A model generated the notes under the pieces. That model did not search any database, was not told the origin of the DNA, and saw only the letters and a list, made by a program, of their open reading frames with translations. 64,000 bases of DNA from Thermoactinospora rubra (GTDB lineage: Bacteria > Actinomycetota > Actinomycetes > Streptosporangiales > Streptosporangiaceae), in assembly GCF_002093975.1 (NCBI RefSeq), contig NZ_KZ084327.1, positions 1 through 64,000 on the forward strand, given 5' to 3'. Both the position numbers and the translations under genes were made by a program. Position 1 is the first letter of the stretch. The number at the start of each line of letters is the position of its first letter. Positions 42,368-54,182 of the stretch are shown here, piece by piece.

Positions 42368-43366
42368 GTGGCTACTACTCCTGCGCATACATTAAGTAGG
42401 CGACCACTCACCATTCCGCCGCTGCCCTGTCCGTTCCCGAGCGAGATCAACCCGCATGCCGTCGAGGTCGACGCCGAGAGCCATGCCTGGCTGGCGGCCT
42501 CGGGGATGCTGGCGGGAACAGGGACGATCGACCACTTCCGCCGGTCGAAAATCGGCATCCTGGCGGCACGCACCAACCCCACGGTGCCCCGCGAAAGCCT
42601 CCGGCTGATCAACGACTGGTACAACTGGCTGTTCGCGTTCGACGACGCCTTCTGCGAGGGCGACCAGGTCGGGAACCGGGCCTCCGCACTGGCCCGGGCG
42701 CTCCCGCCGCTGCTCGAGATCCTCGACGGAGGCGGCGAACCCGAGGACCCCTTCGGCCGATCCCTGAAGGAACTTCTGCATCGCATCTCCGACAGCGCGA
42801 CCCCCGCCCAGGTCGACCGGTGGCGCACCACCGTCAAGGAGTACCTCTTCGCCCAGGTCTGGGAGGCGGCCAACCGGGAGATCGACCTCATCCCCACACC
42901 CGACGACTACATCCTCATGCGGCGCATCACCGGCGCCACCTACACCTGCTTCGCCCTCATCGACGTCGGCGGCGGCTATCGCCTGGAGGCCGAGGAGTGG
43001 CATCACCCGGACGTGCGGGCGCTGTCCGACCTCGCCTGCGACCTCATCGGCTGGGACAACGACCTGCTCTCCTGGGCCAAGGAGCGCGGCAGGGACAAGG
43101 CCCGGCACAACCTCGTCACCGTGCTGGCCACCCATCGCACCCGCGGCGTCCAGCGGGCTCTGGAAGAGGTGGCGGCCATGCACAACGCGGCGATCGCGGC
43201 CTTCATCGCGCGGAGGGCGGCACTGGAACGCTGGGCTTCGATCGTCGTCCGCCGCTACGTCCGCGGGCTGGAGCACTGGGTCCGCGGGCACATCGAGTTC
43301 TCCCTCGAAAGCGCGCGCTACATCCAGGCCTGGCCCACAGGCACCCGCTGGCCTCAGGCCGGCTGA
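42368..43366 (+). CDS. class I terpene synthase
   Basis: A 332-residue bacterial terpene cyclase, full length for the family. It ionises a prenyl diphosphate and cyclises it. The aspartate-rich motif is DDAFCE (Asp92, Asp93, Glu97), the NSE triad NDLLSWAKE (Asn231, Ser235, Glu239) and the C-terminal RY pair Arg317-Tyr318. All metal-binding motifs are intact, so the enzyme should be active, most likely on farnesyl diphosphate. The product cannot be told. The GTG follows GGGGAA. No prenyl transferase or P450 is directly adjacent; the nearest full-length P450 is at 49621. Confidence 0.93.
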   Translation: MATTPAHTLSRRPLTIPPLPCPFPSEINPHAVEVDAESHAWLAASGMLAGTGTIDHFRRSKIGILAARTNPTVPRESLRLINDWYNWLFAFDDAFCEGDQVGNRASALARALPPLLEILDGGGEPEDPFGRSLKELLHRISDSATPAQVDRWRTTVKEYLFAQVWEAANREIDLIPTPDDYILMRRITGATYTCFALIDVGGGYRLEAEEWHHPDVRALSDLACDLIGWDNDLLSWAKERGRDKARHNLVTVLATHRTRGVQRALEEVAAMHNAAIAAFIARRAALERWASIVVRRYVRGLEHWVRGHIEFSLESARYIQAWPTGTRWPQAG

Positions 43367-43380
43367 CCTGACCCGCCGGG

Positions 43381-45489
43381 TCAGGCCGAGAACGGGGCGT
43401 CCAGCTCGCCCAGCGCGAGCGCGGACGCCTCGTCGATGTCCAGCCTCGCGCCTTCCTCGAACGCCTGCTTGTAGGCGTCCTCACCGATGGCTCGCAGGCA
43501 CTCCTTGACGCACCGCTCGTGATCGGAGGTGAGGAAGGGGGCGCCGAGCATGGGCAGGCCGGAGCTCTTCCAGTTCTGGTGTAGCGCGCCCAGCAGCCTG
43601 GCGGCCAGCTCGATGCGGCTCATGGCCGTGTAGATCCGCGCCATCGTCTCCAGCACGAGCAGCGTGCCGAGGGTGTCGTGGAAGTGCCGCTTGATCCTCA
43701 GCCCCTCCTGGGCGCTGTTCAGCGACTCCTCGACCCTTCCCGACCCCAGCTGCACGATGCACAGCGCCCACAGCGCGTAGGAGCTCAGCCACAGCTCGCC
43801 GCGCTCGTGGCAGACCGTCAGGCAGTCCCTCAGCAGCGACTCGGCCTCCATCAGCTCGCCCTGCGCCGACAGCACCAGGGACAGCTCCACGATGGCCGGC
43901 AGCAGGCCCGGGTTGAGCTCCTTGTTGTCGGTGTTGAACTCGATCGCGACGCCCAGCAGGGCGCTGGCCTTCTGCAGGTCGCCCTGCAGGAGCGCGGCGG
44001 TGCCCTGCATCTTCGACGCCAGGATCACCGCCCTGGAGTCGCCGACCCTGACCGCCTCGGTGCTGCACAGCTCGGCCGCCTCCTGCGCGCCCGCGCTGTC
44101 GCCCTGCGCGCTGCGCACGTAGGACAGCACCCACAGCGCCTTGCACCGTTCCTTGCTGGGCGTGGGATTGGCCTGCAGCGCCCGCTCCAGGTACGCGCGT
44201 CCCTCCCGGACGAACCCGCAGCACACCCACATGAACCACAGCGACGACAGCAGCTTCAGGGCCAGCAGGGACTCGCCCGGGCTGTGCAGCGCGTGCTCCA
44301 GCGCCACCCGCACGTTGTCGTGCTCCTGGCGCATCCGGACGAACCAGTAGATCTGCCGTGGCCCGGACCAGGCGTCCTCGCTGCGTTCGGCCAGGCTCAG
44401 GTAGTACTCCAGGTGCCGGTGGCGGATCGTCTCGGTCTCGCCGAGCTTGTCCAGCCACTCGGCGCCGTACTCGGCGAGGGTGTCGATCAGCTTGTAACGC
44501 ACCCCGGCGTGGTTGCTGGCGATGAGCAGCACCGACTTCTCCACCAGCCCGCTCACCAGGTCGGTGATGTCCTCTGAGCGCAGCCGCGCGTCGGAGCAGA
44601 CGAACCGCGCCGCGTCCAGCTCGAAGTCGCCGGCGAACACCGACAGCCGCGCCCACAGCAGCCGCTCCTCCGGCGCGCACAGCTCGTGGCTCCAGCCGAT
44701 GGCCGCGCGCAGCGTCTGGTGGCGCGGCAGCGCCGTACGGCTGGCGCCGGCCAGCAGGCTGAACCGGTCGGTCAGCAGGGCGAGGATCTGGTCCACCGAC
44801 AGGGCGCGCAGCCGGACGGCGGCCAGCTCGATCGCCAGCGGGATGCCGTCGAGGCGGCGGCACAGCTCGGCCACCGAGCCGATGTTGTTCTCATCCAGCA
44901 CGAAGTCGGGCACCACGGCCCCGGCGCGGGAGGCGAACAGCTGCACCGACTCGTTGGTGAACAGGCTCTCCGTCGGGTCGTCGCCCGGCACCTGCAGCGG
45001 CGGCACCGGCACCACGTGCTCGTACGGCACGTGCAGCGACTGGCGGCTGGTGGCCAGGATGCGCAGGTTGGGGTTGGCCTCCAGCAGCTCCTCCACCAGC
45101 TCGGCGCAACCCTGGATGAGGTGCTCGCAGGTGTCGAGGATGAGCAGCATGTCACGCTCGGCCACCCACTCCGACAGCGACTCGGAGGGGGCGCGGGAGG
45201 AGTTGTCGGCGATGCCCAGCGAGGAGGCGATGGTCTGCTTGACCATCCCGGCGTCCTGCAGCCGGGCCAGGTCGGCGAACCACACGCCGTCGGCGTACTG
45301 CCCGCGCACCTGGTGCGCCAGCCGCAGCACCGTGCGGGACTTGCCGACCCCGCCGATTCCCGTGACGGTCACCAGCCGTGACTGGCTCAGACTCCGCTTG
45401 AGGTTGGCGAGTAAGCGCGTCCGTCCGACGAAGCTCGTCAGCTCCGCGGGGAGATTGCCTTCTCGCCGCCAGCCGGATGCGGTGGCCAT
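43381..45489 (-). CDS. STAND ATPase with TPR-like C-terminus (paralogue of 34879)
   Basis: A 702-residue STAND protein. N-terminal WRREGNLPAELTSFVGR, Walker A GIGGVGKS (44-51), Walker B MLLILD (about 114-119), TSRQSL, GIPLAIELAAVRLRALSVDQI and IGWSHELCAPEERLLWARLS match the protein at 34879 closely. TPR-like helices run from about 350 to 690. Like its paralogue it has no LuxR or SARP DNA-binding domain. It converges on the terpene synthase gene (15-base gap). GAGG lies six bases before the ATG. It might control terpene synthesis, but this rests only on position. Confidence 0.88.
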   Translation of the reverse strand: MATASGWRREGNLPAELTSFVGRTRLLANLKRSLSQSRLVTVTGIGGVGKSRTVLRLAHQVRGQYADGVWFADLARLQDAGMVKQTIASSLGIADNSSRAPSESLSEWVAERDMLLILDTCEHLIQGCAELVEELLEANPNLRILATSRQSLHVPYEHVVPVPPLQVPGDDPTESLFTNESVQLFASRAGAVVPDFVLDENNIGSVAELCRRLDGIPLAIELAAVRLRALSVDQILALLTDRFSLLAGASRTALPRHQTLRAAIGWSHELCAPEERLLWARLSVFAGDFELDAARFVCSDARLRSEDITDLVSGLVEKSVLLIASNHAGVRYKLIDTLAEYGAEWLDKLGETETIRHRHLEYYLSLAERSEDAWSGPRQIYWFVRMRQEHDNVRVALEHALHSPGESLLALKLLSSLWFMWVCCGFVREGRAYLERALQANPTPSKERCKALWVLSYVRSAQGDSAGAQEAAELCSTEAVRVGDSRAVILASKMQGTAALLQGDLQKASALLGVAIEFNTDNKELNPGLLPAIVELSLVLSAQGELMEAESLLRDCLTVCHERGELWLSSYALWALCIVQLGSGRVEESLNSAQEGLRIKRHFHDTLGTLLVLETMARIYTAMSRIELAARLLGALHQNWKSSGLPMLGAPFLTSDHERCVKECLRAIGEDAYKQAFEEGARLDIDEASALALGELDAPFSA

Positions 45490-45610
45490 GGGCAGCCTCA
45501 CGAGGGGTAGGCGACTCCTGCCCTCGCATGGTACCCCGCCCCTCCTTGACTGTCCCTTGACACAGGCGGTGGCGGGGGTGGAGTTTTCTACCTCCGGATA
45601 CCATGTGCCG

Positions 45611-45727
45611 GTGAGCGATTTTCTCCCGGAGCAGACTTCCGACGACACCGACCTCGGCTGGGGCGAGTGGCGCGAGGACGACTCCGTCGCCTTCCACCTG
45701 GACAACAGGCCGCCCCACTGGGGTTAA
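45611..45727 (+). CDS. 38-residue acidic micro-protein
   Basis: From the GTG at 45611 the frame encodes SDFLPEQTSDDTDLGWG, then EWREDDSVAFHLDNRPPHWG. The pattern PEQTxDDTDxGWG followed by RPPHWG at the C-terminus recalls short conserved actinobacterial peptides that I have seen only as unnamed hypothetical proteins. It is strongly acidic, with no membrane helix. There is no clear ribosome site. It is divergent from the STAND gene and converges on the exporter permease. Confidence 0.65.
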   Translation: MSDFLPEQTSDDTDLGWGEWREDDSVAFHLDNRPPHWG

Positions 45728-45734
45728 GACACCG

Positions 45735-46571
45735 CTAGGAGACGACGTCCTTGCGGCGGAAGCGGCGGAAGGCGACGGCGATGAGGATCGCCGCGTAGGT
45801 CACCGAGATCGACGCGCCCTTGGCCATGCCGCCGAAGTCGAGCTCCGGCGCGAGGGCGTCGAGCCAGGCGGTGTTCCAGAAGGTGGGCAAGAACTCGCGC
45901 AGCGTCCCCAGCGCCTCCACCGCCTGCAGGATCGTGCTGACGATCCACAGCCCCACCGCGCCGCCGACCGCGCCTAGCGGCGAGTCGGTGACCGTGGACA
46001 GCAGGAACGCCAGCGCCGCCACCACCAGCTGGCTGACCAGGGCGTAGCCGATGACGATGCCGAAGCGGGGCAGCACGTCCAGCGCCGGGATGGTCTCGCC
46101 CGTGCCCGGCACCTGGATGTCGGACCAGCCGAAGGCCAGCGTCCCGGCCGCCAGCGCCATCAGCGGCAGGCTGATCACCGCGGCCGCCGAGTAGCCGAGC
46201 GCGACGATCAGCTTCTGGCGCAGCAGCCGGTCGCGCGGCACCGGTGCGGCCAGCAGGTAGCGCAGCGACGACCAGTTCGCCTCGCTGGCCACGGTGTCGC
46301 CGCAGAACAACGCCACCGCCACGACCAGCAGGAAGCTCGCCGACACCGACAGGGCGAAGGCCGCGAAGTTCAGGCCGCCGGCCGTGGCCAGGTCGGAGAT
46401 GCGCAGGCTGTTGCCCTGCGGGTTGTTCGACTGGGGCCCCACCTTGAAGGCGATCACCAGGATCCAGGGCAGCGCGAGCAGCAGGCCGAACATCACCATC
46501 GTGCGGCGCCGCTTGAACTGCCTGACGATCTCCACCCGCAGCGGCAGGGTACGGCCGGCGACGTAGGTCAT
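45735..46571 (-). CDS. ABC-2 permease partner of the hydrolase-ATPase fusion
   Basis: A 278-residue membrane protein with about six helices (residues about 27-43, 65-92, 110-140, 160-185, 195-220, 250-270). ASEANWSSLRYLLAAPVPRDRLLRQKLIVAL is the ABC-2 feature that meets the ATPase. It is translated from an ATG overlapping the fusion gene's stop by four bases (ATGA). The two proteins should form the transporter. Substrate is unknown. Confidence 0.9.
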   Translation of the reverse strand: MTYVAGRTLPLRVEIVRQFKRRRTMVMFGLLLALPWILVIAFKVGPQSNNPQGNSLRISDLATAGGLNFAAFALSVSASFLLVVAVALFCGDTVASEANWSSLRYLLAAPVPRDRLLRQKLIVALGYSAAAVISLPLMALAAGTLAFGWSDIQVPGTGETIPALDVLPRFGIVIGYALVSQLVVAALAFLLSTVTDSPLGAVGGAVGLWIVSTILQAVEALGTLREFLPTFWNTAWLDALAPELDFGGMAKGASISVTYAAILIAVAFRRFRRKDVVS

Positions 46572-49132
46572 CGTTGCTCCCCGATGAGGTCCAGGAACAC
46601 GTCCTCCAGGCGCGGGCCGTGCCCGTTGGAAGAGGGCCCGTCAGACGAGGCCAGCAGGCGGCTCACCGGGCCCTGCGAGACCAGCCGGCCCCGGTGCATG
46701 ACCACGACGTGGCTGCAGGTCTGCTCCACCTCGGCCAGCAGGTGGCTGGAGACGATCACCGTGCGCCCGTCCCGCGCGTAGCGCTTGAGCACCTCGCGCA
46801 TCTCCCTGATCTGGGGCGGGTCCAGGCCGTTGGTGGGCTCGTCGAGGACCAGCAGGTCCGGCAGGCCGAGCATCGCCTGGGCGATCGCCAGGCGCTGGCG
46901 CATGCCCTGGGAGTAGGTGCGCACGGGGCGCTCGACGGCCGTGCCGAGGGCCGCGATCTCCAGGGCCTCGTCCATGTGCGACTCCTCGGCGGGACGGCCG
47001 GTCGCGGCCCAGTACAGCTCCAGGTTGTCCCGCCCGGACAGGTGCGGCAGGAAGCCGGGGCCCTCCACGAAGCAGCCCAGGCGCGACAGGACCGGGGCGC
47101 CGGGGGTGACGGGCTCGCCGAAGATGCTGATCTCCCCGGCGTCGGGGTGGATGAGGCCCATCATCATCCGCATCGTCGTGGTCTTGCCCGCGCCGTTGGG
47201 TCCCAGCAGGCCGAGGACCTGGCCCTGCTCGACGTGGAAGGACAGGTCGTCGACCGCCTTCTCGCCGTTGCGGTAGGCCTTGGTGAGGCCGGTGATGACG
47301 AGCGGGTGCGGGGCCTCGCCGGCGTCCCCTCCCGCCGCCCCCGGAGTCCGCCGGGGCACGGGGACGAGGGGGGAGGCCGGGGTACGGCGGGGCCGGACGC
47401 GGCCGGTGGCCAGCAGGAGCGCGGCCACGGCGACGGCGGCCAGCGGCATCGCCCACGTCCACCACGCGATGCCCGCCGGGCCGGCGGTCAGGGCCGCGAC
47501 CGTGGGCACCGACATCGCAGGGGAGGCCAGCGCCACCCGGTAGGTCGCGGGCTCGTCCGGCGTGGCGTACCCCATGTCCGTGGTCGTCACCGCCAGCCGC
47601 AGCCGGTGGCCCACGGCGAACAGGTGGTCGACCGCCGGAAGCGTGACGGCGACCTCGGCGCTGCCCGCGCCCTCGGGGATCCGCACCCGCAGCGGCGCGA
47701 CGAGCCCCGACGGCAGGTTCGGCGGCTGCATCGAGTCGGCGACGTCGTAGAGCTTGGCGAACAGCGTGACCTCGCCCGAGCCGGACACCCGCAGCCGGAC
47801 CGCGGGGCTCCCGGTCAGCTGCAGCGGCCGGGACAGCGGCGCCGACTCGAAGACGGCCGTCTGGCCGGGCATGTCGAGCGACAGGCTCACGTTGCCCTGG
47901 CTGAGCGCCGCGCCCACGCCCGGCAGGGTCGAGATCGAGGCCGGCGCGCCGCCCGGCGGGTTGACGATGTTCTGCTCCGGCCCGGACAGCGGCACCGCCG
48001 TCGTCGCGGTCCCGGCCAGCCCCGGGTAGGCCCGCGCCGAGGGGTGGAGCCGGATCCGCTGCCGGGTGCCGGGGTCGCGTCCGCCGTCCCTGGTGATCGT
48101 GAACGCCTCCGCCGCCGCGGGCTCCTCGCGGCGCAGCCACCGGTCGAGCCAGGCCTTGCTCTGCTCGTAGAGCCAGTCGGCCTCGCCGTTGCCGCCGTCG
48201 TGCCCGCCGTCGAACCACATCACCCGGACCGGCCCGGCGACCGCCCTGGCGTTGGCGTCGGCCTGGGCGAGGGTGAACAGCGAGTCGCGCTGCCCCTGGA
48301 TGAGCAGGGTGGGCGCCTTGATCCTGCCCTGCACCGAGACCGGGCTGGAGCGGCGCAGCAGCGCCACCGCCTCCGGGGTGGCCCGGCCGGTGGCGCCGAT
48401 CGTCTGGTAAACGTCGCAGATCTCGGGCAGGAAGCGGCCGCAGCGCGCCTCCTCGGGCGACAGCGGCCGGCCGGGGCGGGCCGAGAAGGCCTGCAGGCCG
48501 TTTTGCACCACGCCGCCGCGGCCGAAGAAGAACCCGGCCCAGCCGCGCTTGAACACCCCGGTTTCCGGCCCCTGCCCTGCGGCGTCGGGGAAGAGGGCGT
48601 CGGCCAGGTCGTGCCAGGTGATCTGCGGCACGATCGCGTCGACGCGGGCGTCGTGGGCGGCGGTCATCAGCGCGATGGCCCCGCCGTACGAGCCGCCCAC
48701 CATGCCGACGCGCGGGTCGCCCTGCGCGTCGAGCAGCACCTCGGGCCGCCGGGCCAGCCAGTCGATGAGCTGCTTGACGTCCTTGACGTCGTAGTCGGGC
48801 GAGTTGAGGGTGATCTGCCCGGTCGAACGGCCGAAGCCCCGGGCCGACCAGGTCAGGACGGCGTAGCCGTCACGCGCCAGCCGCAGCGCCTCGGCCCGCA
48901 CGCTGTCCTTGGACCCGCCGAACCCGTGGGCGAGCAGCACGGCCGGGACCCGGCCGCCGCCCTCGGGCGCGAAGAAGGTGGTGTCGATCTCGACCCGCTG
49001 ATCGTCCTTCGGGCCGTCGACCACCGTGATGCGCTGCTCGGCACGCCGCACGCCGGGAGCGGACGGCCACAGCAGCCACACCGAGACCCCGAGCACGACG
49101 AGCGCGACGACCAGCATGGCCGCTCGTCTCAT
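46568..49132 (-). CDS. fusion of an extracytoplasmic alpha/beta hydrolase to an ABC ATPase
   Basis: One 854-residue chain. Residues 5-23 are a membrane helix or signal anchor. An X-Pro dipeptidyl-peptidase/CocE-like hydrolase follows (about 35-335) with Ser148 in GGSYGG, Asp283 in QGQRDSLF and His311 in DGGHDGG. A jelly-roll domain comes next (about 370-540), then a second membrane helix (556-577). The ABC ATPase follows: GPNGAGKT (644-651), signature SQGMRQ (741-746), LLVLDE (760-765). By topology the hydrolase faces outward and the ATPase inward. The frame is unbroken. The coupled permease gene completes the exporter. Confidence 0.93.
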   Translation of the reverse strand: MRRAAMLVVALVVLGVSVWLLWPSAPGVRRAEQRITVVDGPKDDQRVEIDTTFFAPEGGGRVPAVLLAHGFGGSKDSVRAEALRLARDGYAVLTWSARGFGRSTGQITLNSPDYDVKDVKQLIDWLARRPEVLLDAQGDPRVGMVGGSYGGAIALMTAAHDARVDAIVPQITWHDLADALFPDAAGQGPETGVFKRGWAGFFFGRGGVVQNGLQAFSARPGRPLSPEEARCGRFLPEICDVYQTIGATGRATPEAVALLRRSSPVSVQGRIKAPTLLIQGQRDSLFTLAQADANARAVAGPVRVMWFDGGHDGGNGEADWLYEQSKAWLDRWLRREEPAAAEAFTITRDGGRDPGTRQRIRLHPSARAYPGLAGTATTAVPLSGPEQNIVNPPGGAPASISTLPGVGAALSQGNVSLSLDMPGQTAVFESAPLSRPLQLTGSPAVRLRVSGSGEVTLFAKLYDVADSMQPPNLPSGLVAPLRVRIPEGAGSAEVAVTLPAVDHLFAVGHRLRLAVTTTDMGYATPDEPATYRVALASPAMSVPTVAALTAGPAGIAWWTWAMPLAAVAVAALLLATGRVRPRRTPASPLVPVPRRTPGAAGGDAGEAPHPLVITGLTKAYRNGEKAVDDLSFHVEQGQVLGLLGPNGAGKTTTMRMMMGLIHPDAGEISIFGEPVTPGAPVLSRLGCFVEGPGFLPHLSGRDNLELYWAATGRPAEESHMDEALEIAALGTAVERPVRTYSQGMRQRLAIAQAMLGLPDLLVLDEPTNGLDPPQIREMREVLKRYARDGRTVIVSSHLLAEVEQTCSHVVVMHRGRLVSQGPVSRLLASSDGPSSNGHGPRLEDVFLDLIGEQR

Positions 49133-49188: not shown

Positions 49189-49596
49189 TCAGCCGAGCAG
49201 CGCGTAGACCGTGGAGGCGCGGGCCGCCGGTCCCGGCGCGCCGTCGGCCGTGAGCGTCACGTCGCAGAACGCCAGGGTACGGCCCAGCTTGGTGATCCGC
49301 ACGTCGACCACGACGTCCTTGCCCGCCACCGGCCGCTCGAACGTGGTCGACTGCTGCACCGTCGTCATGGGCACGAACCCGCCGCGGGCCGCGGAGATCG
49401 CGATGACGGTCGCGGTGTCGGCGGCGGCCATCATCGCCTGACCGCACAGCCCGCCGCCCTCCCTGGCCAGCCGATCCGACCAGGGCAGCCGCACGACCGC
49501 GCGGTGGTCGCCGACCTGCTCGACGCTCAGGCCGAGGTCCTGGATCCATGGTGCGAAGTGGTCGCGGAGTATCGCCTGCCCCTCTTCTGGCGTCAT
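49189..49596 (-). CDS. PaaI-type hotdog thioesterase
   Basis: A 135-residue hotdog-fold protein: DLGLSVEQVGDHRAVVRLPWSDRLAREGGGLCGQAMMAAADTATVIAISA and TTVQQSTTFERPVAGKDVVVDVRITKLGRTLAFCDVTLT. Members hydrolyse aryl- or acyl-CoA thioesters. The catalytic Asp/Asn position before the central helix reads GGLCGQAMMAAAD. The ATG at 49596 lies only a few bases from the P450 start on the other strand and has no ribosome site, so promoters must sit in the neighbour's coding sequence. Confidence 0.82.
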   Translation of the reverse strand: MTPEEGQAILRDHFAPWIQDLGLSVEQVGDHRAVVRLPWSDRLAREGGGLCGQAMMAAADTATVIAISAARGGFVPMTTVQQSTTFERPVAGKDVVVDVRITKLGRTLAFCDVTLTADGAPGPAARASTVYALLG

Positions 49597-51332: not shown

Positions 51333-52493
51333 GTGAAAGCTCTGATCAGGTGGTTTTCGCCCTACTGGACGCGGGGCCCGGCCGGGCGCGAGACGCCGCC
51401 CGAGCTGTTCCGCGTCCTGTACCTGGGCTGGCTCGTGGCGCTGAGCCTCAAGCTGCTCGGCTCGGCCTGGGACGTCTCGTGGCACTTCAAGTGGCTGCGC
51501 GACGACCTGGCCCCGCCCCACCTGCTGAACTCCGCCGGAACGGTCATCGCCCTGGCCCTCACGATCATCCACGGCTACACCGGGTACGGCGTGGACAGGA
51601 CGGCGCTGCGGCTCATCCAGTGGGGGACCGGGATCTTCCTGGTCGCCGTGCCGCTCGACCTGATCAACCACCGGATCAACGGGCTCGACATCACGTCCTG
51701 GAGCCCCTCGCACATCCTGCTCTACGTCGGCACGTTCTTCATGATCGCCGGCGTGATCCGCGGCTGGCTCCTCGGCGGCGGGTCCAAGCTCGTGCTCGGC
51801 GCGTTCTTCGCCTTCTTCCTGGAGAACGTCCACTTCCCCGAGCAGCACCAGGAGTACGGCGTGCTGTCCATCGGGGCGTGGGACAACGGCGTGGCCTACG
51901 CCGAGCCGATCCTGCAGAACTTCGCGGCCGACCAGATGGGCCGGCCCGTCGACCGTGTCATGATCGTCAACTTCTCGCTGCCGGTGCCCGACTGGCTGTA
52001 TCCGGTGTACGCGGTCATCGCCGGCATGGCGGTGCTGACGGTCGCGCGCATGGTCATCGGCCGGTTCGGCGCGGCCACGCTGGTCGCGGCCGGGTACGTC
52101 GGGTTCCGCACGCTGATCTGGCCGCTGCTCACGGCCGGCGGCTTCCCGCCGTCCGCGGTGCCGTACTTCCTGCTGGCCGGGGGGCTGTGCGTGGACCTGG
52201 CCTTCGCGCTGCGCCACCCCGTCGCGCGGGCGGTCGCGGGGTCGCTGCTGGCCACCGCCGGGGTCTACGGCGTGCTGGCCGTGCAGAGCGCGGTCATGGG
52301 CCAGGTGTACGGCACGCTGAAGGGCCAGACCGGGCTGCTGGGCGCGCCGCCCCTGGCGCCCGGGTCGGCCGTCTACGCCGGAGCGGGGCTGCTGGCGGTG
52401 TGGCTGGCGTGCGAGTGGTTCGTCACGCGCTTCGGGCTGCGCGCCGAGGATCAGCCGATCGAGGCGCGGGTGATCGCCACGGCGACGCCGTAG
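51333..52493 (+). CDS. polytopic membrane protein of unknown function
   Basis: A 386-residue protein with about nine or ten helices. Early sequence (WFSPYWTRGPAGRETPPELFRVLYLGWLVALSLKLL, SAWDVSWHFKWLRDDLAPPHLLN) is rich in Trp and charged loops. Several His lie near membrane boundaries (SWHFKW, PPHLLN, PSHILLY, ENVHFPEQHQE), possible metal or heme ligands. Its 3' end overlaps copD by 43 bases on the other strand. The facing copper genes make a copper-related job conceivable but unproved. The GTG has no ribosome site and may be leaderless. Confidence 0.75.
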   Translation: MKALIRWFSPYWTRGPAGRETPPELFRVLYLGWLVALSLKLLGSAWDVSWHFKWLRDDLAPPHLLNSAGTVIALALTIIHGYTGYGVDRTALRLIQWGTGIFLVAVPLDLINHRINGLDITSWSPSHILLYVGTFFMIAGVIRGWLLGGGSKLVLGAFFAFFLENVHFPEQHQEYGVLSIGAWDNGVAYAEPILQNFAADQMGRPVDRVMIVNFSLPVPDWLYPVYAVIAGMAVLTVARMVIGRFGAATLVAAGYVGFRTLIWPLLTAGGFPPSAVPYFLLAGGLCVDLAFALRHPVARAVAGSLLATAGVYGVLAVQSAVMGQVYGTLKGQTGLLGAPPLAPGSAVYAGAGLLAVWLACEWFVTRFGLRAEDQPIEARVIATATP

Positions 52494-53464
52494 GCCAGGC
52501 CCATCACGGTCACCTCGGCCGCCGCCCACGCCACGACGGGGGTGGCGGCCCCGCGCATCAGGCGGAAGCGGATGTTGGCCGCCAGGGCGGCCAGGGCGAC
52601 CGTCAGCGCCACCTTGGCGACCACCAGCACGCCGTAGTCGGTGGTCAGCAGCGCGCCGGGCAGCTCGCCGCCGGGCGTGAGCGCCATCGTGCCCAGGCCG
52701 CTGACCAGGCCGGACAGGGTCACCAGCGCCAGGCAGAGGGTGGCGAGCCTGGAGAACTTCGGCAGCACGTCGGCCAGCAGCGGGCGGGCGAAGGCCACGA
52801 CGGCGATCAGGCCGCCGGTCCACAGCGCCGCGCCCATCACGTGCAGCTCCATGGAGATCATGAGGGGGTCGTGCCAGACCGAGTCGACGGCGTGGCCGGT
52901 CACGGGGATCGGCAGCAGGCCGAACAGCGCCACCACGACGCGCAGCTCGGCGGGCACCTTCTCGCCGAACCGGACCGCCATGAGGCCGATGCCGGCGGCG
53001 GCCAGCGCGCAGGCGGCGCTGAACAGCAGGCCCTGGCCGGCGCCGACGCCGTCCACGTAGGCGGCGATCATGCCGAGGGTCGGGACGCCGCCGGGGTTCA
53101 GCTCGGCGGTCTGGAGCACGATCGCCAGCAGGGCGCACAGCGCCCACGCCCACGCGGCCTGCACCGCCAGCGGGCGCACGCGGCGCATCACCGGCTCGGT
53201 GCGCCCGGGGTCGTCGAAGCCCAGCAGCTTGGGCAGCACGCTCAGGCCCACCACGCCCACGGCGGCCGCGTCGAGCAGCGCGCGCACGACCGGCAGGCCG
53301 TACTCCACCACCGTCCCGGGCATGGGGATGCCGGGCACCGCCTCCTGCCCGTTGAGCGTGCTGGCCACGACGGCGGCCACCACGGCACCGCCCAGGAACC
53401 CGCCCACGACCAGCCCGGCCGGCCCGGTGGCCCGCTCCTTCGCCGCCGTCGCCTGCCCGCTCAC
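52451..53464 (-). CDS. CopD-family copper resistance membrane protein
   Basis: A 337-residue membrane protein with about eight helices of the CopD/YcnJ group. Likely copper ligands are His in VTGHAVDSVWHDPLM and LHVMGAALWTGGLIAV. It is coupled to the CopC gene by a four-base overlap (ATGA). CopC hands copper to CopD for import, or both serve delivery to enzymes; the direction is not shown here. Confidence 0.9.
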   Translation of the reverse strand: MSGQATAAKERATGPAGLVVGGFLGGAVVAAVVASTLNGQEAVPGIPMPGTVVEYGLPVVRALLDAAAVGVVGLSVLPKLLGFDDPGRTEPVMRRVRPLAVQAAWAWALCALLAIVLQTAELNPGGVPTLGMIAAYVDGVGAGQGLLFSAACALAAAGIGLMAVRFGEKVPAELRVVVALFGLLPIPVTGHAVDSVWHDPLMISMELHVMGAALWTGGLIAVVAFARPLLADVLPKFSRLATLCLALVTLSGLVSGLGTMALTPGGELPGALLTTDYGVLVVAKVALTVALAALAANIRFRLMRGAATPVVAWAAAEVTVMGLAYGVAVAITRASIG

Positions 53465-54132
53465 GCCCGGGCCTTCCCATCCCGCTCGCCGTCCCCCGGC
53501 GCCCGGCCCTCGGCCCGTACGGCTGGCACCGCGGCCCCGGATGATCCCTCCCGGTCCTCAGCCCGTGCGGCCGGGGCCTGCGGAGCGCCGCCCGAGCGCC
53601 GCAAGGCCACCACCGTGCCCAGCCCCAGCACCACGAGCGCCCCGGCGATCCACACCACGGCCATCCCCGCGCCCCCGTTGGCCGCCGCCTCGGCCGCCTC
53701 GGCGGCCGGGTCGGGCGCCTGGTCACGCGCCGGAGCGCTCGCTGGAGCGCTCGCCGAGGGCGCCGGACTCGCCGCCCCGCCCGCGAACGTGAACGTCACC
53801 TTGCCCGACACCGGATGCCCGTCCGACGACAGCACCCGATACCCCACCACGTACTTGCCCGGCCGCACCAGCGGCCTGACCCTGACGCTCACCCGCTCCT
53901 TGCCGACCGTCGCCTCGCCGTCCGCCCACGCCGACCCGTCGCTCCCGGTCACGGTCACCTTCGCGTACCCCTGCCGCACCGCCGCGCTGAAGACCAGCGT
54001 GACGGTCGCGGGCGGCTCCTCCAGCCGCGCCCCGTCCTTGGGATCGCTGTCCACCAGCACGTCGTGCGCCCACGCCGTACCGGGAACCCACGACACCAGC
54101 GCCAGCAGGACCACCGCGAGCAACCGCCGCAC
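53461..54132 (-). CDS. CopC-domain copper-binding protein
   Basis: A 223-residue exported protein. From the GTG at 54132 (GGGGAGG upstream) the signal peptide ends at TAWA, leaving HDVLVDSDPKDGA as the mature start, whose first His is the family's copper ligand. GYRVLSSDGHPVSGKVTFTF supplies the second His. A Ser/Ala/Pro linker leads to a membrane helix (about 160-178) and an acidic cytoplasmic tail. A TTG 21 bases earlier is possible but would lengthen the signal peptide and hide the ribosome site. Confidence 0.9.
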   Translation of the reverse strand: MRRLLAVVLLALVSWVPGTAWAHDVLVDSDPKDGARLEEPPATVTLVFSAAVRQGYAKVTVTGSDGSAWADGEATVGKERVSVRVRPLVRPGKYVVGYRVLSSDGHPVSGKVTFTFAGGAASPAPSASAPASAPARDQAPDPAAEAAEAAANGGAGMAVVWIAGALVVLGLGTVVALRRSGGAPQAPAARAEDREGSSGAAVPAVRAEGRAPGDGERDGKARA

Positions 54133-54182
54133 AGCCGTTGACCTCCCCCTCAACCGTGCACAACCCGTCTATGGTCCCACTT

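Follow-up and report, generated by a model that had tools for sequence, protein, structure and literature searches.

The window, the whole 64,000-nucleotide stretch of Thermoactinospora rubra contig NZ_KZ084327.1 analysed here, carries on its reverse strand a two-gene module in which a serine hydrolase and an ABC ATPase share one polypeptide and are followed by an ABC permease. The fusion gene is a single unbroken open reading frame of 854 residues, and its coordinates, strand and length are exactly those given in an earlier note on this DNA. Along the chain, an N-terminal helix is followed by a CocE/NonD-type alpha/beta hydrolase, a PepX_C beta-domain, a second membrane helix and the ABC ATPase. 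The features are as follows:

46568..49132, (-) strand: fusion gene, 854 aa, comprising N-terminal helix, CocE/NonD-type hydrolase, PepX_C-like beta-domain, membrane helix and ABC ATPase
49067..49132, (-) strand: residues 1-22, hydrophobic signal-anchor helix (hydropathy 4-22; AF2 helix 2-20)
48200..49030, (-) strand: residues 35-311, alpha/beta-hydrolase catalytic core (PF02129 at 47-291; TIGR00976; HGFGG at 69-73; S148 in GGSYGG, D283, H311)
48416..48442, (-) strand: C231-C239 cysteine pair, probable disulfide (invariant, 35 of 35 orthologues)
47546..47878, (-) strand: residues 419-529, PepX_C-like beta (jelly-roll) domain (PF08530; strands in the model)
47402..47467, (-) strand: residues 556-577, second membrane helix, followed by the invariant R578 and positive charge (AF2 helix 557-576)
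47306..47401, (-) strand: residues 578-609, disordered linker (pLDDT <50 at 577-605)
46571..47305, (-) strand: residues 610-854, ABC ATPase, NosF/DrrA/LanF-like, with complete motifs and E690 at the Q-loop position (PF00005 at 628-768)
45735..46571, (-) strand: ABC-2 (type V) permease, 278 aa, NosY-like fold, 4-bp overlap with the fusion gene (PF12679/PF12730)

All three domains are recognised by Pfam in the one chain (Peptidase_S15 at residues 47-291, PepX_C at 419-529 and ABC_tran at 628-768), and the permease matches ABC2_membrane_2/4 (PF12679/PF12730). An AlphaFold2 model of the fusion chain, built on an alignment of 35 orthologues (mean pLDDT 87.7), contains the hydrolase, the beta-domain and a well-formed ATPase. 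The strands modelled in the PepX_C region and the helix modelled at 557-576 agree with the jelly-roll domain and the crossing helix at 556-577 that had been proposed from the sequence, and the N-terminal hydrophobic helix (2-20), which was absent from that earlier list, would be the export element of the hydrolase. The four-base overlap between the permease and fusion genes that had been read from this locus is exact, and an overlap of exactly four bases at the permease start is found in 87 loci; through it, the permease is translationally coupled to the fusion gene.

An assembly error, a frameshift or a chance joining of two genes, the first concern raised by the earlier note, is excluded because the frame is uninterrupted in the genus and the fusion recurs in the class and the phylum. 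All 37 genomes of the genus, the window's own and 36 relatives, have the fusion, never with an internal stop; match identities in these relatives equal those of named Nonomuraea loci. Matches were obtained in 19 of 98 genomes sampled across the class, these being the window's own, two with a stand-alone hydrolase only and 16 with the fusion; the fusion is thus found in 16 of the 97 non-own genomes of this spread sample. It is also found in 7 of the 118 other genomes of a phylum sample, several of which belong to families outside the class. Some of the fusion-bearing class matches are single-contig streamlined genomes of 1.3-1.4 Mb. Moreover, the proposed triad (Ser148, Asp283 and His311) and the residues of an ATPase that had been described as complete (Walker A K650, signature G743, Walker B D764/E765 and H-loop H797) are identical in all 87 distinct orthologues, and the loss of the triad that had been considered for the orthologues is seen in none of them. 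No re-split version was found within the fused group in the genus, class and phylum samples or in the hydrolase tree.

A literature search, with most subscription journals outside its reach, found no publication on the fusion or its function. In Tsukamurella tyrosinosolvens the two-gene module lies on a 386-kb plasmid (L165:6959-10218), with the same 4-bp overlap, amid sulfur-acquisition and phenylacetate genes. This copy is annotated merely as 'alpha/beta fold hydrolase', then 'ABC transporter permease', and the proteins are therefore present in databases without a named architecture, as had been suspected. Four MAGs titled Bifidobacterium breve (L100, L104, L106 and L108) encode a fusion protein 47-48% identical to the query, as in Nanopelagicales MAGs; L106 groups in the tree with genomes of other families, and the species labels look wrong.

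Across 80 loci, the gene most often kept near the fusion is the permease (77), and after it a STAND-TPR regulator (56), a terpene synthase (43) and a P450/thioesterase (24-27). When flanks were compared, no conserved neighbour besides the permease was found in distant lineages, and no peptide gene either. Since the permease alone is common to distant lineages, the substrate is not readable from the neighbourhood. Membership of a biosynthetic cluster was rejected, the P450/thioesterase being present at only 24-27 of the 80 loci and distant lineages keeping the permease alone, as was a role as a defence system, for which PADLOC gave generic ATPase matches only. A viral fold search likewise returned only generic ABC and alpha/beta-hydrolase matches.

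In the window itself, the gene at 43381-45705 (-) encodes a STAND ATPase/TPR regulator-like protein with no Pfam DNA-binding domain, and a gene of this kind adjoins the module in 56 of the 80 loci (Streptosporangiaceae). The terpene synthase at 42368-43366 (+), a neighbour shared by 43 of the 80 loci, is a near match to 4-epi-cubebol synthase (350.8 bits for NF042951, short of the cut-off of 500). A cytochrome P450 gene (49504-50868, (+)) and a 4HBT thioesterase gene (49189-49548, (-)) are adjacent and divergent, and the assigned P450 start overlaps the thioesterase gene. Farther along, at 52451-54153 (-), an exported protein and a multi-helix membrane protein are encoded in tandem and look CopC/CopD-like by eye.

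The sequences argue strongly for a hydrolase outside the membrane and an ATPase inside, because four lines converge on this arrangement. The N-terminal helix is hydrophobic (hydropathy 4-22; AF2 2-20) and in some orthologues resembles a cleavable signal peptide. The net charge around the second helix averages -0.4 before it and +2.0 after it in 35 orthologues, with R578 invariant. C231 and C239, which probably form a disulfide, are the sole cysteines of the whole hydrolase region in 35 of 35 orthologues. Finally, secreted-looking stand-alone relatives of the hydrolase stop where the second helix of the fused form starts. The claim that an outward hydrolase and an inward ABC ATPase share one chain is most likely right, and an inward-facing hydrolase is disfavoured by the cysteine pair, the export helix and the secreted relatives.

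The hydrolase scores above both curated cut-offs of its group, with 85.4 for PF02129 (cut-off 23) and 106.2 for TIGR00976 (CocE_NonD, NCBIfam; cut-off 66.3). Among solved structures, the 'Lipase' PaL (PDB 8yzn, 8yzo) ranks first in both the sequence-profile and the fold comparison. The next solved matches by sequence are esterases, cutinases and PET hydrolases, not peptidases, and those by fold are CocE and X-Pro peptidases. In the HGFGG motif, on the strand before the nucleophile, F71 is retained in 34 of the 35 fused rows and replaced by Leu in one. Tyr44 of CocE helps form the oxyanion hole; the corresponding S15/CocE tyrosine is absent from the fused hydrolase, and a canonical S15 protein encoded by the same genome, compared by eye, has RSPY. 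Given the missing tyrosine and the resemblance to lipases and esterases, ester or acyl hydrolysis is favoured over removal of a dipeptide or leader. We place moderate confidence in this prediction of ester/acyl rather than peptide chemistry, against which counts that Pfam and NCBIfam place the hydrolase in S15/CocE, among whose members are peptidases and amidases.

By fold and motifs, the ATPase and the permease constitute a type V (ABC-2) system, for which transport itself is a prediction. The permease model (pLDDT 88.7) has an ABC-2 fold of about six helices, and its best fold match is NosY of the NosDFY complex, with further matches to PmtCD and ABCG. Solved matches of the ATPase are ABCA, NosF and TM0544, NosF being 38-39% identical in the fold alignment. 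Type V systems, as defined in the ABC classification, include importers (PMC8386196), which would count against assuming that the ABC part exports.

Among the unfused ATPases of the window's own genome, the closest is 53% identical to the fused ATPase and lies in a three-gene operon on contig 21 (L167:1590-4586). This operon encodes an exported DUF2092/LolA-like protein, an ABC ATPase and a type V permease, and is present in all five genus genomes checked. The exported protein scores 23.8 bits for DUF2092 (cut-off 21.2) and below the cut-off for LolA_like, so that the LolA-like call is a weak one; the operon is possibly a lipid or lipoprotein system of actinobacteria. From the likeness to NosFY and from this operon with its exported protein, the shared theme appears to be an ABC pair with an extracytoplasmic partner, which in the fusion is a fused enzyme.

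The reading we prefer, with confidence a little short of even, is a two-gene membrane machine in which an outside ester/acyl hydrolase is tethered to an ABC transporter that handles an acylated or amphiphilic substrate. The fused chain would be exported N-terminus first, its ATPase remaining in the cytoplasm, and a serine hydrolase of the esterase, lipase or acylase type would be held outside between the two anchoring helices. Two fused chains and two NosY-like permeases, the stoichiometry that we infer, would bring a pair of hydrolases to the outer face of the membrane. The ABC part would extract an acylated, lipid-like molecule from the membrane or move a molecule across it, and the hydrolase would cleave an ester or acyl bond of the molecule handled by the transporter, the fusion holding the enzyme next to the transporter in a 1:1 ratio. 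The substrate type and the direction of transport are the weak elements of this scheme. The architecture, the intact catalytic and ATPase motifs, the coupling to the permease, the single fusion branch described below and the long conservation are observed. The anatomy described in the earlier note is correct, and better supported than that note could know, and substrate processing at the membrane is a reasonable hypothesis.

NosFY has NosD/NosZ as its target, and FtsEX has cell-wall hydrolases; NosFY with its extracytoplasmic partner is understood as a case of mechanical coupling, not of simple export. The main rival to the tethered arrangement is accordingly mechanical, with ATP hydrolysis moving no substrate and instead driving a transmembrane conformational change by which the external hydrolase is opened, closed or loaded. 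We consider it less likely than tethering, and on the whole rather unlikely. NosY as the best match of the permease and NosF as a top match of the ATPase speak for it. The linker between the second membrane helix and the ATPase, which varies from 13 to 122 residues among orthologues, bears on it in both directions: it is only 13-22 residues in 29 of the 35 orthologues, but it reaches 113-122 residues in some Nonomuraea and is disordered in the model. Long or disordered linkers would allow no direct rod-like transfer of force, and coupling would therefore need to go via the permease.

A role in self-protection, in which the hydrolase inactivates an ester or amide toxin or antibiotic at the cell surface and a DrrA/LanF-like ABC part removes that compound from the membrane, is distinctly unlikely. 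Among NCBIfam models, the ATPase does score best with subunits for lantibiotic protection and for daunorubicin resistance, though well short of the cut-off in each case (for the lantibiotic immunity ATPase model TIGR03740, 180.5 against 309.75). A Glu occupies the Q-loop position (E690) in 34 of 35 orthologues, an E-loop being a possible link to lantibiotic immunity ATPases, and many hosts of the fusion belong to what we take to be antibiotic-producing genera. However, the curated resistance cut-offs are missed, the module is found in streamlined genomes of 1.3-1.4 Mb and, within the genus, it is universal whatever the neighbouring clusters.

Peptide maturation during export, with removal of a leader or N-terminal dipeptide in a mirror image of the peptidase-containing ABC transporters (PCATs) that are the precedent for cleavage fused to export (PMC10986499), has the Pfam name Peptidase_S15 on its side but is improbable, the S15/CocE tyrosine being absent, esterases and lipases lying nearer by sequence than peptidases, and no peptide gene being linked to the module as a conserved neighbour. 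The earlier note had suggested that the exported molecule is processed as it leaves, for example by removal of a leader peptide or an acyl group; the leader-peptide part is not supported by this evidence, and the acyl part may be right. Both self-protection and peptide maturation rank below the tethered arrangement.

Stand-alone hydrolases of Actinomycetota (L134, L135, L151-L159, L163 and L164) are 29-42% identical to the fused hydrolase and have the same triad, and several begin with a signal-peptide-like stretch. None carries an ABC ATPase in its chain, no matching ATPase or permease was found in the flanks examined, and L134 and L135 are without the second membrane helix. A hydrolase tree was built from 35 fused and 13 stand-alone sequences, leaving out the S15 paralogues of the window's own genome for their long, misleading branches; in it, a single branch with support 100/100 parts the fused from the stand-alone forms. 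When compared in a second tree with 19 further ATPases from the genome, those of the fused chains likewise cluster together (SH-aLRT 97). Both trees are unrooted, so they show that a single fusion event would suffice and not in which direction it went. In L155 and L158, a stand-alone-type hydrolase makes up the C-terminal portion of an open frame that is far longer (962 and 949 aa, respectively; each frame begins at the edge of its locus), and these may be fusions other than the hydrolase-ABC type.

Mere co-localisation, in which hydrolase and transporter have different targets and the fusion only anchors a once-secreted hydrolase and matches expression, would suit the secreted stand-alone relatives without an ABC neighbour and the tolerance of long flexible linkers, but it is very unlikely, given that fusion and permease have stayed together in practically all members throughout the phylum and that no re-split form was found in the fused group.

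Whatever its mechanism, the module probably has a role basic to the actinobacterial envelope and independent of any single antibiotic cluster, since every sampled genome of a large genus retains it, as do some streamlined genomes of 1.3-1.4 Mb. A bolder reading, doubtful but worth stating, is that of an Actinomycetota-wide, ATP-powered extracytoplasmic hydrolase, in which a NosFY-like motor would drive or load the fused surface esterase or acylase on envelope lipids or acylated molecules. An outside enzyme joined to the motor would in any case offer a simple, built-in way of asking whether ATP hydrolysis powers or gates chemistry beyond the membrane.

Comparison with known systems sets the module apart from each of them. 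With NosDFY it shares a NosF- and NosY-like pair (~20-39% identity) and an extracytoplasmic partner beside that pair. NosD, however, is a separate protein with a fold other than that of a hydrolase, whereas here the ATPase carries its partner, a serine hydrolase, on the same chain; no NosD partner or nitrous-oxide-reductase context was found among the scanned neighbours (terpene synthase, P450, thioesterase, PAC2 protein and regulator). Like the CocE/NonD hydrolases, the fused form has a catalytic domain and a PepX_C beta-domain, the Ser-Asp-His order and scores above both curated cut-offs, but it differs in the Phe of HGFGG, the two anchoring helices and the fusion to an ABC ATPase. The match to PaL (8yzn/8yzo) spans the catalytic and beta domains, although PaL is ~20% identical to the fused hydrolase and is itself unfused. 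The stand-alone secreted hydrolases have the homologous domain with the same triad but neither an ABC ATPase in the chain nor ABC neighbours, both of which the fused form has. PCATs resemble the fusion in carrying a hydrolytic enzyme on an ABC transporter chain, cleavage by their C39 peptidase being tied to export (PMC10986499). C39 is a cytoplasmic cysteine peptidase whose chain also includes a membrane domain and an ATPase. No Pfam match to a C39 domain was found in the fusion chain; its serine hydrolase probably lies outside, and its type V permease is encoded by a gene of its own. Enzyme-ABC fusions are thus already known, but the described case has its enzyme inside the membrane, and the one reported here has it, most likely, outside.
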